From Firmicutes bacterium ADurb.Bin182 (lineage in GTDB: Bacteria; Bacillota; Clostridia; Christensenellales; CAG-138), in assembly GCA_002070205.1 (NCBI GenBank), contig MWCU01000035.1:1-64000 (forward strand): a DNA stretch of 64,000 nucleotides, written 5' to 3'. Below are positions 19,282 to 48,154 of the stretch, one piece after another. Numbering within the stretch: position 1 is the first letter of the stretch; every line of letters begins with the position of its first letter. The notes under the pieces were generated by a model. The model was given only the letters and a program-made list of their open reading frames with translations. It had not been told where the DNA came from and made no database searches. Made by a program: the position numbers and the translations under genes.

Positions 19282-19310
19282 TTGCACTTTTTTGATAACA
19301 TGTGTTATAT
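19282..19310 (+). promoter_or_regulatory. possible promoter of the TetR gene
   Basis: TTGCAC (19282-19287), 17 bp, TTATAT (19305-19310). The -10 region lies inside the left arm of the dyad at 19297-19348. Confidence 0.4.
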
Positions 19311-19348
19311 AATAGATGTTATATAATAGATGTTATATAACACATGTT
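19297..19348. promoter_or_regulatory. large operator-like dyad with internal direct repeats
   Basis: Two perfect 16-bp arms, AACATGTGTTATATAA (19297-19312) and its reverse complement (19333-19348), flank a 20-bp centre. The centre and inner arm edges are made of a 14-bp unit TTATATAATAGATG, repeated twice in tandem and followed by TTATATAA. The dyad lies just before a TetR-family gene, so autorepression is likely. Confidence 0.65.
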
Positions 19349-21949: not shown

Positions 21950-21988
21950 AATTTTACAGCGCTTATTCGGAAGCTGCGGCCGGTTTGA

Positions 21989-23602
21989 TTACTTTGTTAT
22001 CGAATAAGCTATGTTTTCCGCCCTGTCGGCAACTCTTTCCAAATCCGAAATCATATTGGTAAATATAACGCCCGTTTGAGGGTCGCAGGTCTTTTCCTGC
22101 AGCCTTTGAATGTGGTTGTTTATGTAAGCATCATGAAGCTCGGTCACTTCTTTTTCGAGCTTATCGAAAGGTTCAAGGTCGCGGACGCTTCTGCGCTCGA
22201 AAATCCTTAAACCTTCATCCAGTGTTTCGGTTACTTTTTCCGCCATCGATTTGAGTTCTTCCTCGCCGAAGCTCGTCATCTGCATCCGTTTATCGGCCAG
22301 AACAGCACCGTATTTCACGATATTTTCCGCATGATCGCTTATACGCTCCAAATCGATAATAACGTGGTGAAGGCTTCCCAATACCTTAATATCGTTTTCC
22401 GCCAGTTTATAGCCGCTGTATTCGATGATGCGCTTTGAGATTTCGTTGCTCAGAAAGTCAACGGTGTTTTCCGTTTCCAGCACGGTTTCTCTTTTTTTCT
22501 CGTTGTTTTCAAAGAAAGCTTCCAGCGCAAGCTTGAAATTGCCGCTCGAGATCTTTGCTAAGCGGACAATCTCTTTGAGAGTCATGGGCACTATAAGGGT
22601 AGGATTATGACTGATTTTCTCCTGAATGAACATAAGCTTTCTTTCTGCCTTGTGAGGGTCGTATTTTTCGGGCAGTATCTTTGAAATAAGGCTGACCATC
22701 ATATTCGCGAACGGGAAAAGCAGAATGGTGACCGTAACGTTGAACAAAGTGTGAAAATTCGCTATTTGTCTTCTGACATTGCTTCCGGTGAACGAGACGA
22801 CCCAATCGACGATGCCCGGGAATATGCCGAGCAGGACAAGGAAAATGACCGTTCCGATAATATTGAACATCAGATGGATGCCCGCAGTCCTCTTGGAATT
22901 CGTGCCTGTGCCTATCGACGCCAAAAGCGCCGTCGCGCATGTTCCGATGTTCTGTCCCAATACGACGAAAACAGCGCTGTCAAGGCCGATAAGGCCGGCT
23001 GCGGCGAGAGTTTGCAGTATACCTACCGAAGCGGAAGAGCTTTGGATGACCGCCGTGAAAACAGCTCCTATCAAGACTCCCACAACGGGATTTTTGAAGT
23101 TCACAAGGAAGTTTTTAAATGCTTCGTCGTTCTGCAAAGGCTTCATTGCATCGGACATAAGGCCGAGACCGACAAAAAGGATGCCGAAGCCGAGTATGAT
23201 AAGACCTATCCGAGTCAATATTCTTTTTTTCAGTAAAACAGTCATGAGCATGCCCGCAAAAAGAATAATCGGCGCTGCATCCGAAAGGTTGAAGGCAATG
23301 AGCTGAGCAGTGACGGTCGTTCCGATGTTTGCCCCCATGATAACGCCGGTAGCTTGAAGCAAAGTCATAAGCCCGGCGTTTACAAAGCCGACGACCATGA
23401 CCGTTGTTGCGGAAGAACTCTGTATTACAGCCGTAACGCCCGTACCGACCGCAAGTCCCGCAAAGCGGTTTTCGGTCAATACTTCAAGCGTCCGCCGCAT
23501 CCTGTCGCCTGCGGCATGCTCAAGCCCGTCCGACATCATTTTCATGCCGTACAGGAACAGACCAAGTCCGCCGAGCAGCAGAAAAACCATTTCTAATTTC
23601 AT
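21989..23602 (-). CDS. Na+/phosphate symporter of the NptA/YjbB type with PhoU-like domain
   Basis: The 537-residue protein has two copies of the Na/Pi-cotransporter repeat, each with a QSSSA motif (GVTAVIQSSSATTVM about residues 57-71 and FTAVIQSSSASVG about 180-192), giving about eight membrane segments. The C-terminal 180 residues form a PhoU-like helical domain (for example DLERISDHAENI and DLERVADRAENI). It probably exchanges phosphate across the membrane with Na+. AGAGG precedes the ATG. Monocistronic, with a promoter at 23652-23680. Confidence 0.9.
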   Translation of the reverse strand: MKLEMVFLLLGGLGLFLYGMKMMSDGLEHAAGDRMRRTLEVLTENRFAGLAVGTGVTAVIQSSSATTVMVVGFVNAGLMTLLQATGVIMGANIGTTVTAQLIAFNLSDAAPIILFAGMLMTVLLKKRILTRIGLIILGFGILFVGLGLMSDAMKPLQNDEAFKNFLVNFKNPVVGVLIGAVFTAVIQSSSASVGILQTLAAAGLIGLDSAVFVVLGQNIGTCATALLASIGTGTNSKRTAGIHLMFNIIGTVIFLVLLGIFPGIVDWVVSFTGSNVRRQIANFHTLFNVTVTILLFPFANMMVSLISKILPEKYDPHKAERKLMFIQEKISHNPTLIVPMTLKEIVRLAKISSGNFKLALEAFFENNEKKRETVLETENTVDFLSNEISKRIIEYSGYKLAENDIKVLGSLHHVIIDLERISDHAENIVKYGAVLADKRMQMTSFGEEELKSMAEKVTETLDEGLRIFERRSVRDLEPFDKLEKEVTELHDAYINNHIQRLQEKTCDPQTGVIFTNMISDLERVADRAENIAYSITK

Positions 23603-32975: not shown

Positions 32976-34310
32976 ATGAAGAAAGCGATTTCCCTTTTGC
33001 TGGCGGCGCTTATGTGCGTGCTCTTTTTATCCGGTTGCCAGGGCGCAACGATAACGCCGGAAAACCCGCAGGAAACACAGCCTGCTGAGCCGCAAAAACC
33101 CGCGGACAATGAGCCCGAGAAAGGGCCCGTCGAGATTATGGTAGTAACATCCTATGGCGGAGACGACGGGAACAGGGCAAATTACGAGGCAGCCTTCAGA
33201 GCATACGAAGCGGCTTCCGGCAATATAGTCAAGGACGCTTCCGCCACATCCAATGAAGAATGGAAAGCAAGGGTCATGACGGATTTCCAGACCGGATCAG
33301 AGCCCGATGTGCTGTTCTATTTCAACGGCGTGGATTCCAATGCACTGATTGAAGGCGGCAAGGTCGTGAGTATCGATGAGATCAGAGCGGAGTACCCCGA
33401 ATATGCTAGCAACATGAAAGACGGCATGCTGGGCGCTTCCCCCGTAGACGGCAAGAACTATTCGGTGCCCGTTAACGGTTACTGGGAAGGCTTGTATGTT
33501 AACCTAAAAGTGCTTAAGGATTGCGGAGTCGCCGTTCCGGGACCCGATTATACATGGGAGCAGTTTTTAGCGGACTGTGAAACCATCAAGTCAAAGGGAT
33601 ATACCCCCATTGCCTGCTCTCTGCAGGAGGTGCCGCATTATTGGTTCGAGTTTTGCATCTACAACCACGGTTCCGCAGCGAATCATGGTCAGCTGCCCGA
33701 AACTTCCTCGGACGAGGTCGGCCAAAAATGGGCAGCAGGTCTGAACGACATCAAGACCCTGTATGAGAAGGGTTACTTCCCCGTGAATACGCTGACCGCG
33801 ACCGATCCGGAGACATTCCAATTGATGGCGGATAACCAGGCTGCTTTCGCAATAGACGGCAGCTGGAAAATCGGCTGGTTCCAGGCGAACGCCGCGGATA
33901 TCAACGACTTTACGGTAGTATTTGTCCCCGGGATGGGCGACAGAGCGGCTACGGACATCATAGGCGGCCTGTCCATGGGTTATTACATCACCCGCAAAGC
34001 ATGGGACGATCCCGTGAAGCGCGAAGCCTGCGTAGAATTCGTTATGGCAATGACGACCGACGAGGTGGTTTCTACGTTCGGAGCGACCGCAGTGACCGCT
34101 CTCAAAAACGGTACTACGCCTCCCGCCGAAACCGACGCGCTTATTAACGCAGCGCTGGCGATGACCAAGGGAGCTACCGGGGTCGTCGGGGCGGTTCAGG
34201 ACAGCCTTAATCCGAATGCGCGCGGTGAAATGTTCTCGCAGATTAAGAACATCGTGACCGGAGCTGTCACGGCGGAAGAGGTCATAGATTCTGTTCTCGC
34301 CATTAAATAA
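32976..34310 (+). CDS. ABC transporter sugar-binding lipoprotein (family 1)
   Basis: The 444-residue protein is a UgpB/MalE-type extracellular binding protein. It has a signal peptide ending in the lipobox LSGC, then an acidic, Pro-rich tether of about 30 residues, and the mature domain with a family pattern (VMTDFQTGSEPDVLFYFNG; IDGSWKIGWF). The ATG at 32976 follows GGAGG by eight bases; an earlier ATG at 32961 overlaps that site. Two permease genes follow. By context it may bind chitobiose or a similar disaccharide; this is inference only. Confidence 0.9.
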   Translation: MKKAISLLLAALMCVLFLSGCQGATITPENPQETQPAEPQKPADNEPEKGPVEIMVVTSYGGDDGNRANYEAAFRAYEAASGNIVKDASATSNEEWKARVMTDFQTGSEPDVLFYFNGVDSNALIEGGKVVSIDEIRAEYPEYASNMKDGMLGASPVDGKNYSVPVNGYWEGLYVNLKVLKDCGVAVPGPDYTWEQFLADCETIKSKGYTPIACSLQEVPHYWFEFCIYNHGSAANHGQLPETSSDEVGQKWAAGLNDIKTLYEKGYFPVNTLTATDPETFQLMADNQAAFAIDGSWKIGWFQANAADINDFTVVFVPGMGDRAATDIIGGLSMGYYITRKAWDDPVKREACVEFVMAMTTDEVVSTFGATAVTALKNGTTPPAETDALINAALAMTKGATGVVGAVQDSLNPNARGEMFSQIKNIVTGAVTAEEVIDSVLAIK

Positions 34311-34335: not shown

Positions 34336-34373
34336 AAGAGAGCCGTATCGGCCGGGTCCATCACGGCTCTCTT
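34336..34373 (+). terminator. intercistronic hairpin after the binding-protein gene
   Basis: An 11-bp perfect stem AAGAGAGCCGT / ACGGCTCTCTT (34336-34346 and 34363-34373) with a 16-nt loop that is itself partly self-complementary. Only a weak T run follows. It may act as a partial terminator or as a 3'-end stabiliser, raising binding protein over permease levels as at malE-malF. Confidence 0.6.
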
Positions 34374-45475: not shown

Positions 45476-46588
45476 ATGATAAGCAGAAATTTTTCAGCCG
45501 CGATATCGGGAGGAAAAAGGGAGCCTATTTCCAACACCGGCTTGCTCCTGAGCATAACCATTTGCACATTCATCGGCATGTATGTGCTTGCAATGCTCAT
45601 ATGGGGCGGAGGTTTCCTGAATCCTCAGCAATTCCTTGATATTTTCAATAACAATGCGTTTTTGATAGTGATTTCCTGCGGACTGACCGTAGTCATGATA
45701 GCGGGCGGGATTGATATTTCGGTCGGGGGAATAACCGCTCTGGTGACGATGGCTTGCGTTGTTTACCTAGACGATCACGGCGGCAGCGTTATAGGTTCGA
45801 TGGGCTTGGCCTTGGGTATAGGCGCAGCGTTCGGGCTTGTTCAGGGAATTCTGATATCATATCTTGATATACAGCCCTTTATTGTCACTTTAGCGGGTAT
45901 GTTTTTTGCAAAAGGCATGACGACAATAGTCAGCGTTGCTCCGCGCACAGCGGTTCACGAAGCATTTGTCGCCTTTAAACAATTCCGAATTGTCATTCCC
46001 GGTATCGGTTCTTTCGGAAAATCCGGGAATTTCATCCCTGCAAAAATCGAGATCGGCGTAATAGCAGCCATTGCTGTCGTTTTGGCCGTAACGGCAATTC
46101 TGAAATGGACCCGATTCGGGCGCAACCTCTATGCTGTCGGAGGGAATAAGCAGAGCGCGCTGATGCTCGGCATCAATGTTAAGCGGACAAAATTCTATTC
46201 CCATTTGCTCTCCGGGTTTTTAGCCGGAATCGGCGGTTATGTTTATCTGCTGCATACGGGGGCGGGAAATGCTTCAAATGCGACCGCCGCTGAGATGCAG
46301 GCAATCGCATCCGCCATCATTGGCGGGACATTATTGACCGGCGGCGTTGGCAATGCGATAGGTACGCTTTTCGGAGTGCTCTCATTAAAGAATATCAACA
46401 ACATTGTAATAGCTTCCGGGCTTCGGGAGCCGTATTGGCAGAGCATTACGACAGGGCTTATACTCTGCTTCTTTATTTTGCTTCAAAGCGTTGTTCTCGC
46501 GCTCCGCGGCAAAGGCAGCTTTAATCAGCAGTTGCCGGAGTGGCTGAAATTCAGGGATAAAGAGGACAGCAAGGATTTGACGTCATAA
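45476..46588 (+). CDS. sugar ABC transporter permease (YjfF-like)
   Basis: The 370-residue BPD_transp_2 permease has about nine hydrophobic segments, the GGIDISVGGITALV motif and IIGGTLLTGGVGNAIGTLFGV. It follows the YtfT-like gene by one base. Two paralogous permeases fit a heterodimer as in the galactofuranose importer YtfQRT-YjfF. Confidence 0.9.
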   Translation: MISRNFSAAISGGKREPISNTGLLLSITICTFIGMYVLAMLIWGGGFLNPQQFLDIFNNNAFLIVISCGLTVVMIAGGIDISVGGITALVTMACVVYLDDHGGSVIGSMGLALGIGAAFGLVQGILISYLDIQPFIVTLAGMFFAKGMTTIVSVAPRTAVHEAFVAFKQFRIVIPGIGSFGKSGNFIPAKIEIGVIAAIAVVLAVTAILKWTRFGRNLYAVGGNKQSALMLGINVKRTKFYSHLLSGFLAGIGGYVYLLHTGAGNASNATAAEMQAIASAIIGGTLLTGGVGNAIGTLFGVLSLKNINNIVIASGLREPYWQSITTGLILCFFILLQSVVLALRGKGSFNQQLPEWLKFRDKEDSKDLTS

Positions 46589-46793
46589 AAAGCTGCGGGT
46601 CTGAATAAGGCGGTTTTCATATAACACGATGCCTCCTGCTTCCTTGATTCAAACTATGTTCTGCATCGTATAAATTCACGCATATTGATATTTGCTCCCG
46701 CGCTCCTTTTATAATTCGGACAGCGGGAGCGTTTGCTTTAATATAAACGCGCGTTTACGGCATGCTCTGTTGCTCAAATATTATAAAGTTAAA
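46589..46793. other. intergenic region after the importer operon
   Basis: The arms GCTCCCGC / GCGGGAGC (46694-46701 and 46723-46730) could form a hairpin with a 21-nt loop, perhaps ending the importer transcript; the following T run is broken. A -10-like TATTAT lies at 46779-46784, just before the structured segment. No gene seen. Confidence 0.35.
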
Positions 46794-46929
46794 ATGGCTC
46801 TCAGTAAAGGTCCACCGTCAACGGTTGACTTTAAAAGCCGAGGCTTTCCGGATGCAGGATAATGAGTCTTCAGGGAGATTTTTCTCCTTTGGAGGACTTT
46901 TTGGCTTGCGGCGGATCGCTGAGAGCCAT
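46794..46929 (+). other. candidate structured RNA, class unknown
   Basis: A perfect 11-bp long-range inverted repeat, ATGGCTCTCAG (46794-46804) and CTGAGAGCCAT (46919-46929), encloses three local hairpins: GTCAA-CGG-TTGAC (46817-46829), AAAGCC/GGCTTT (46834-46847) and GGAGA-TTTT-TCTCC (46874-46887). The last is enclosed by a further stem AGTCTTC / GAGGACT (46865-46871 and 46892-46898, one G-U pair). This looks like a closed multi-branched RNA. No open frame fits. I cannot match it to a known riboswitch, 6S, SRP or RNase P RNA. Confidence 0.4.
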
Positions 46930-46950
46930 GTTTGATGCTTCTGCCTTGCA

Positions 46951-46985
46951 ACGGCGGCCGGACTTTAATATATTACGGCGGCCGG
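46951..46985. repeat. short GC-rich direct repeat
   Basis: ACGGCGGCCGG occurs at 46951-46961 and again at 46975-46985, a 24-bp period in an otherwise AT-rich spacer. It lies between the structured segment and the LCP gene. Confidence 0.6.
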
Positions 46986-47065
46986 TTTGATTGTTATACC
47001 CAAGTATTGGCAAGCATATAATTTAAAAATCATTCGGTGCATCCGGATATACAGGGTGAGAGTTT

Positions 47066-48154
47066 ATGCCGGACAACATAATTAAAAAAAACAAACAAAC
47101 GGTCCGGATCATCGCAATCGCTGCGGCCTCGGTTATTCTCGCCTCCGCCGCTGCCTTCGGTTACGTTTATTTGAACATTATAAAGCTGAACGCAAATGCG
47201 GCACGTATAGTCGATAAGCCCGACGCGGTATCCGCGTTTGCGCCGGTAGACCGGTTGGAGCGAATCGAAGGCACGCCTTCAGATATTGACGAGGACCATT
47301 TCTCGGATGTTCCCGAACCGACGCAGGAACCTATATACAATCAGGTACCTATCAATGGAAATGTAATCAATGTCCTCCTGCTCGGAACCGATGTCCGGCC
47401 GAACCAAAAGAGCAACGGAAGAACGGACAGCATAATGCTCCTTTCATATAACCGAAACACAAGAACTGCAAAATTGATTTCATTTATGCGCGATGTCTGG
47501 CTCCATATTCCGGGCAGGGGGTGGGATCGCATCAACGCTTCTTTTACTTACGGCAATATTGGACTGACCGTTAATACCGTAAACAAGAATTTTAATCTGG
47601 ATATCCAAAACTATCTGGTTATCGATTTTGAAGGATTCAAAAAAATCGTGGATAAACTCGGCGGAATAGAAGTAATGCTCGATGAAAAGGAGATTAAATA
47701 CATCAACGACAGGTCAAGCAGACAGCTGACAAAAGAGGCGGGAATGAAGCTGCTAAACGGTGAGCAGATGCTCATCCATTGCCGGAACCGCAAAACCGGA
47801 GGCGGCGATTTTGAAAGAACGCAGCGGCAAAGGGACGTTATGCTGTCCATTTTCAACAAAGCAAAAACCATAAATGACCCTGTGCTGTTTGCGCAAGTTC
47901 TGTCCTACGCCTTGAAGCATGTTCAAACAAACATGACGCCGGATATAATATTCACGCTCGGCCTTGAGGTTTTGACCTCAAAGGAGTTTAAAATGGAGCA
48001 GGGCAGGATCCCGTTCGACAATACCTGGCGCTACGCGAGCAAGGACGGCAAAAGCGTCATCAGCATCGATTTGAGCGAAAATATCCATCTGCTGCATGAT
48101 TGTCTGTATGAAGACGGCTCTGTGAACAAGCTCATCATCAAATTTGAAGATTGA
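47066..48154 (+). CDS. LCP-family (LytR-CpsA-Psr) cell-wall polymer ligase
   Basis: LCP proteins transfer anionic or other glycopolymers from a lipid carrier to peptidoglycan, on the outer face of the membrane. The 362-residue protein has a short cytoplasmic N-terminus, one membrane helix (about 11-33), and the LCP domain with NVLLLGTDVR, GRTDSIMLLSYN, SFMRDVWLHIPG, RINASFTYGN and HCRNRKTGGGDFERTQRQR, including the Arg and Asp residues that bind pyrophosphate. GGGTGAG precedes the ATG. The last 17 bases overlap the convergent PhzF-family gene. Confidence 0.9.
   Translation: MPDNIIKKNKQTVRIIAIAAASVILASAAAFGYVYLNIIKLNANAARIVDKPDAVSAFAPVDRLERIEGTPSDIDEDHFSDVPEPTQEPIYNQVPINGNVINVLLLGTDVRPNQKSNGRTDSIMLLSYNRNTRTAKLISFMRDVWLHIPGRGWDRINASFTYGNIGLTVNTVNKNFNLDIQNYLVIDFEGFKKIVDKLGGIEVMLDEKEIKYINDRSSRQLTKEAGMKLLNGEQMLIHCRNRKTGGGDFERTQRQRDVMLSIFNKAKTINDPVLFAQVLSYALKHVQTNMTPDIIFTLGLEVLTSKEFKMEQGRIPFDNTWRYASKDGKSVISIDLSENIHLLHDCLYEDGSVNKLIIKFED

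Follow-up and report, generated by a model that had tools for sequence, protein, structure and literature searches.

Relation of the element to described structured RNAs

Retron noncoding RNAs have paired ends and short hairpins followed by one long arm, and 6S RNA forms a long closed rod that carries side hairpins midway along its length. A structured element at positions 46788-46936 (plus strand) of the window, by which we mean the whole 64,000-nt stretch of DNA that was analyzed, recalls both. It likewise has paired ends, short hairpins and a long arm, but no reverse transcriptase adjoins it; the flanking genes encode an importer and an LCP protein, a genome-wide search at E 1e-3 gave no RVT_1 match, and a retron was rejected. 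The likeness to 6S RNA lies in the rod with side hairpins, but the element has no 6S match, and 6S RNA was rejected because the only RF00013 match in the genome lies elsewhere (G000:C35:66210-66381). That 6S RNA scores 62.6 bits, above the Rfam cut-off, and is found about 2.2 kb beyond the end of the window. With riboswitch-like leaders the element shares a junction fold upstream of a gene and, in our model, mutually exclusive pairings that would reach the Shine-Dalgarno region; it differs from them in matching no known aptamer or Rfam family and in the absence of detected homologs. With intergenic bacterial small RNAs it shares a possible promoter at its 5' edge, a self-contained fold and a hairpin that follows, and it differs in the weakness of that promoter and of the terminator and in having no detected conservation.

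The fold, closed and multi-armed with a long arm at its end, is superficially like several known RNAs, which speaks for a highly diverged representative of a known family. We consider that explanation very improbable and already largely refuted: a search with the Rfam 15 covariance models gave no match at gathering thresholds over the window and none up to E 10 over 46600-47150, 6S RNA is encoded elsewhere, ARAGORN called neither a tRNA nor a tmRNA in the window, and the genome is without RVT_1 or TROVE matches. Candidate tRNA or tmRNA identity was rejected on the ARAGORN result, and a bacterial Y RNA was rejected on the absence of TROVE (Ro) matches in the genome. The view of an earlier note on this DNA, made from the sequence alone, that no known RNA class could be assigned here also holds under the covariance-model search. 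Of the listed publications on both LCP proteins and riboswitches, none is about such a leader, judging by the titles and the opening lines of the abstracts.

Gene setting, fold and strand of the element

The element lies in a spacer (46589-47065) bounded on one side by the gene for the last permease of a sugar-type ABC importer (BPD_transp_2; ending at 46588) and on the other by a LytR-CpsA-Psr (LCP) gene (47066-48154; PF03816, E 1e-36). Both flanking genes are on the plus strand, and the LCP gene is the next plus-strand gene 3' of the element. Early in the spacer, at 46694-46731, a plus-strand inverted repeat forms a hairpin with a short T-rich tail (GTTTGCTTT; -20.9 kcal/mol, z -3.6) that is probably the terminator of the importer operon mRNA. 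Between this hairpin and the element lies a perfect 14-bp DNA palindrome, TAAACGCGCGTTTA, at 46744-46757, which appeared as a self-match, has no second exact copy in the window and overlaps the nearest -35-like hexamer; it may be an operator-like site. Elsewhere in the window, at 19295-19348, a TetR-like frame (assigned by eye) is preceded by AT-rich repeats, short and of the ATGTTATATAATAG type, which are also operator-like. For none of the three short open reading frames over the region (46692 and 46762 on the plus strand, 46781-46951 on the minus strand) was there a Pfam match below E 0.13.

The computed fold of the element is a closed four-way junction with 60 pairs and an energy of -69.5 kcal/mol. 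Helix P1 consists of a 5' strand (46788-46805) and a 3' strand (46918-46936) with G46930 bulged, giving 18 pairs, 12 of which are contiguous (46794-46805 with 46918-46929) and six of which lie beyond the bulge. It closes the hairpins P2 (46807-46832) and P3 (46835-46846) and the long arm P4 (46847-46915), which ends in an apical hairpin at 46864-46899 and includes five consecutive T (46898-46902). The core of P1 is the 11-bp perfect inverted repeat that the earlier note had picked out (ATGGCTCTCAG at 46794-46804 and CTGAGAGCCAT at 46919-46929), which closes a segment of 136 nt, and the three internal hairpins it had described, one of them nested, correspond to P2, P3 and P4 with its apical hairpin. 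Pair probabilities mostly exceed 0.9 and are lowest at the outer end of P1 (0.66-0.70), at the foot of P4 (0.61) and inside P4 (0.49 and 0.54).

The excess of structure over chance, also computed, is large. The minimum free energy of 46780-46935 is -68.3 kcal/mol against -42.2 +/- 3.8 for 200 shuffles (z -6.8), none of which was as good, and a second run with 300 shuffles of the element gave z -6.76. When the window was tiled as a control, the element tile ranked second of 858 tile-strands with z -5.8, a rough value given 25 shuffles for each tile-strand. The sole tile scoring below it is a minus-strand tile at 34271 that holds a terminator-like hairpin. This hairpin, GAGAGCCGT...ACGGCTCTC followed by TTGTTT at 34338-34371, occupies the gap after a solute-binding protein gene, and no other tile of the control has as low a z. 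Of 400 shuffled versions of the spacer, 5 contained an 11-bp perfect inverted repeat with a gap of 50-200 nt; the 64 kb contain two such repeats.

The 60 pairs comprise 25 A-U, 25 G-C and 10 G-U; the 1x1 mismatches number three (C-U, A-G and U-U) and include no A-C. In a decaying DNA palindrome, A-C mismatches are expected to be as frequent as G-U. RNA is therefore favored over a decaying palindrome, because 10 of the 60 pairs are G-U with no opposing A-C, an argument to be taken with caution in that the folding program itself favors G-U. The computed strand bias points the same way: the plus strand folds 21.8 kcal/mol better than the minus strand, a difference whose absolute size is reached by one of 429 tiles. 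We take the plus-strand RNA to be the likelier product of the element.

A nonfunctional or DNA-level feature, whether a mobile-element remnant, a set of nested inverted duplications or a DNA cruciform, is in our estimation unlikely. It would suit an element confined, as a single copy, to its own genome among those sampled. Y1-type transposases use hairpin ends, the genome has six Y1-transposase matches, and a 10-nt direct repeat, CTTTAATATA, with copies at 46736 and 46963, flanks the element. Against it stand the lack of a second copy in the genome, the comparison with the six Y1 loci, which returned only words of 10-14 nt at E 3.5, the G-U pairs without A-C mismatches, a pattern that points to selection acting on RNA, and the absence of matches in phages and plasmids. 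The Y1 matches themselves are on contigs C54, C48, C18, C126, C58 and C109 of the genome, in open frames of 91 to 254 aa. A MITE or mobile repeat, which requires several copies, was rejected when blastn and the covariance model R1 found one, and the decayed mobile element that the earlier note had entertained is not borne out, with a single copy in the genome and no match in phages, plasmids or IMG/VR patterns.

Distribution of the element and of its gene neighborhood

No credible match beyond the element itself was found in the collections searched. By blastn it was found in its own genome only among 101 genomes (its own and 100 relatives). The covariance model R1 was made by entering the window sequence two times, and as a one-sequence model it carries no covariation. 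Across 103 family genomes it gave no credible match in the 102 others, two incomplete matches, 42 and 48 bases long (E 0.50 and 0.76), being taken as chance, and at E 0.05 it recovered only the element itself in samples of 396 order, 391 class and 398 phylum genomes, which overlap, were filtered more strictly than the family scan and yield counts that are not additive. In a set of 25 sources it found, besides the element, four matches with E values of 0.37 to 5.5 that were taken as noise, and it had no match in loci L031-L033 and L045-L049 and in 21 further loci. Patterns made from the P1 arms matched three IMG/VR stretches and five genome contigs, none of which has the fold.

There is consequently no covariation evidence, because no homolog was found. 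The conservation in related genomes by which the earlier note would have judged the region did not appear in the family, order, class or phylum samples; close relatives of the source lineage seem not to have been sampled, and no same-genus genomes are among the matches listed. Pipelines that mine spacers, for instance those in PMC8632094, PMC6429828 and PMC11109978, would be the natural route for filing such a spacer; the first of them refers in its abstract to comparative sequence analysis, for which relatives are lacking here.

LCP homologs are at most 47% identical, and a protein scan of the genome contigs for the LCP gene found no relative. The last importer permease was found in 15 of the 102 other family genomes (E 1e-60), where the genes after the importer, in cases in which they are readable, are CarA-like or sugar-isomerase-like frames (by eye). 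No cognate spacer was found in family genomes with readable downstream sequence, and the junction between importer and LCP gene looks private to the lineage.

Possible transcript boundaries and predicted pairing with the LCP start region

The predicted start of a transcript coincides with the edge of P1. A -10-like TATTAT at 46779-46784 (plus strand), read directly from the sequence and not listed by the promoter scan, would put the start at about 46790. The promoter proposed for this hexamer in the earlier note survives in part: the hexamer is present and the start would fall where expected, but the promoter is rated weak because no -35 was found 16-18 nt upstream. The nearest -35-like hexamer is TTTACG at 46754-46759, at a spacing of 19 nt. 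A minus-strand promoter-like site at 46780-46808 (TTTACT-17-TATAAT, 10/12), directed toward the importer end and away from the element, outscores TATTAT at the same place.

Downstream of the element, the GC-rich 11-bp direct repeat reported earlier is present (46951-46961 and 46975-46985), and its copies pair as the two arms of a hairpin because each is nearly self-complementary. The G+C hairpin at 46951-46985 is a possible, weak terminator on the plus strand: the 46952-46984 hairpin has an energy of -16.8 kcal/mol and z -1.65, with a 15-nt loop and the tail GTTTGATTGTT, and it is missing from the list of the terminator scan, which has a loop limit of 8. The 15 nt at 46978-46992 (GCGGCCGGTTTGATT) are repeated exactly at 21976-21990, between two other genes. 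A TATAAT at 47017-47022 (plus strand), again read directly, without a good -35 and not listed by the promoter scan, is a candidate -10 of the LCP gene itself.

These signals would fit a free-standing small RNA about 150-200 nt long, with a start near 46790, a four-way junction body, an end at or after the G+C hairpin and an action in trans by pairing or protein binding, the LCP gene being transcribed from its own promoter around 47017. This is the chief competitor of the leader reading set out below, and we regard it as possible but somewhat doubtful. It accounts for the predicted start at the P1 edge, the closed and self-contained body, the G+C hairpin with a T-rich stretch downstream and the TATAAT ahead of the LCP gene; against it, the downstream hairpin is a weak terminator (unlisted, with its long loop and modest z), and the match of two strands of the element to the LCP start region would have to be chance.

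That match is a new observation here. Within the last 28 nt ahead of the LCP start codon lie complements of the 5' strands of P1 and P4, arranged so that the two helices would nest. The sequence TGCATCCGGA at 47038-47047 is a perfect 10-nt complement of the P4 5' strand (46847-46856), and when this helix is forced the folding program also pairs the P1 5' strand (46796-46803) with TGAGAGTT at 47057-47064, in the interval between the Shine-Dalgarno sequence and the start codon, leaving P2, P3 and the tip of P4 unchanged. When P1 is closed, the predicted partner of the Shine-Dalgarno region (47052-47063) is the stretch 46937-46948, and CAGGGUG (47052-47058) is paired with 46942-46948; in the alternative fold the Shine-Dalgarno AGGG is mostly open and the 8 nt directly before the start codon are paired. 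The two computed folds are nearly equal in energy. The alternative is about 2-4 kcal/mol worse than the best fold (-102.9 against -104.9 kcal/mol over 46790-47065, and -102.9 against -107.0 over 46790-47080), and the ensemble energy over 46790-47080 favors the P1-closed state by 3.6 kcal/mol. A 10-bp Watson-Crick helix to the start region occurred in 8 of 1000 leaders with the downstream part shuffled. Its combination with a second, enclosing helix of 7 bp or more occurred in 4 of 1000, and none of the window's 39 other upstream regions had it. These figures flatter the match in that the test was designed after it was seen. Unseating P1 costs 2.0 kcal/mol compared with 8.5 +/- 2.8 in shuffles, 5 of 200 of which were as low.

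Our best reading, which we hold tentatively, is that the element is a structured leader at the 5' end of the LCP mRNA, specific to this lineage and acting in cis. We infer that a plus-strand transcript from about 46790 would run into the LCP mRNA as its 5' leader and could adopt two states. In the first, P1-P4 would form the compact four-way junction with CAGGGUG paired to 46942-46948. In the second, the 5' strands of P1 and P4 would leave their 3' partners and pair with 47057-47064 and 47038-47047, keeping the nested order, leaving P2 and P3 intact and freeing most of the Shine-Dalgarno AGGG. The two states would alter LCP translation, and some signal would pick between them. The probable importer-ending hairpin upstream and the position of the LCP gene next on the same strand speak for a leader. 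Against it, no homolog was found in the samples searched, the G+C hairpin and the TATAAT between the element and the LCP gene could split the transcripts, both predicted states pair part of the LCP start region, the P1-closed state is the one favored by ensemble energy, and related LCP genes in loci L004 and L034 (the latter a paralog) are preceded by coding sequence (by eye) with no such leader. We rank the leader above the small RNA because of the switch-like complementarity. That one or the other is correct, and that a strongly structured plus-strand RNA is real, we consider probable. The earlier note had left three possibilities side by side, namely a small RNA, an LCP riboswitch and a decayed mobile element. 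Folding and strand asymmetry support the structured plus-strand RNA well, the nested complementarities, noticed post hoc, lend some support to the cis-acting leader, and the mobile element is not supported.

A narrower proposal, which we think improbable, is that the element represents a new class of switch RNA, narrow in its distribution, in which the P1 and P4 strands jointly swap partners with copies directly ahead of the start codon and so control the LCP gene, a member of a cell-wall glycopolymer ligase family, while P2 and P3 serve as a fixed sensing core. Should the element prove to be a leader switch, an LCP gene would have a regulatory RNA that belongs to no Rfam family. Should it instead be an orphan small RNA, that RNA would be specific to the lineage and, with no close relatives sampled, beyond comparative confirmation. 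Either reading yields a precise and testable model with two named strand exchanges.
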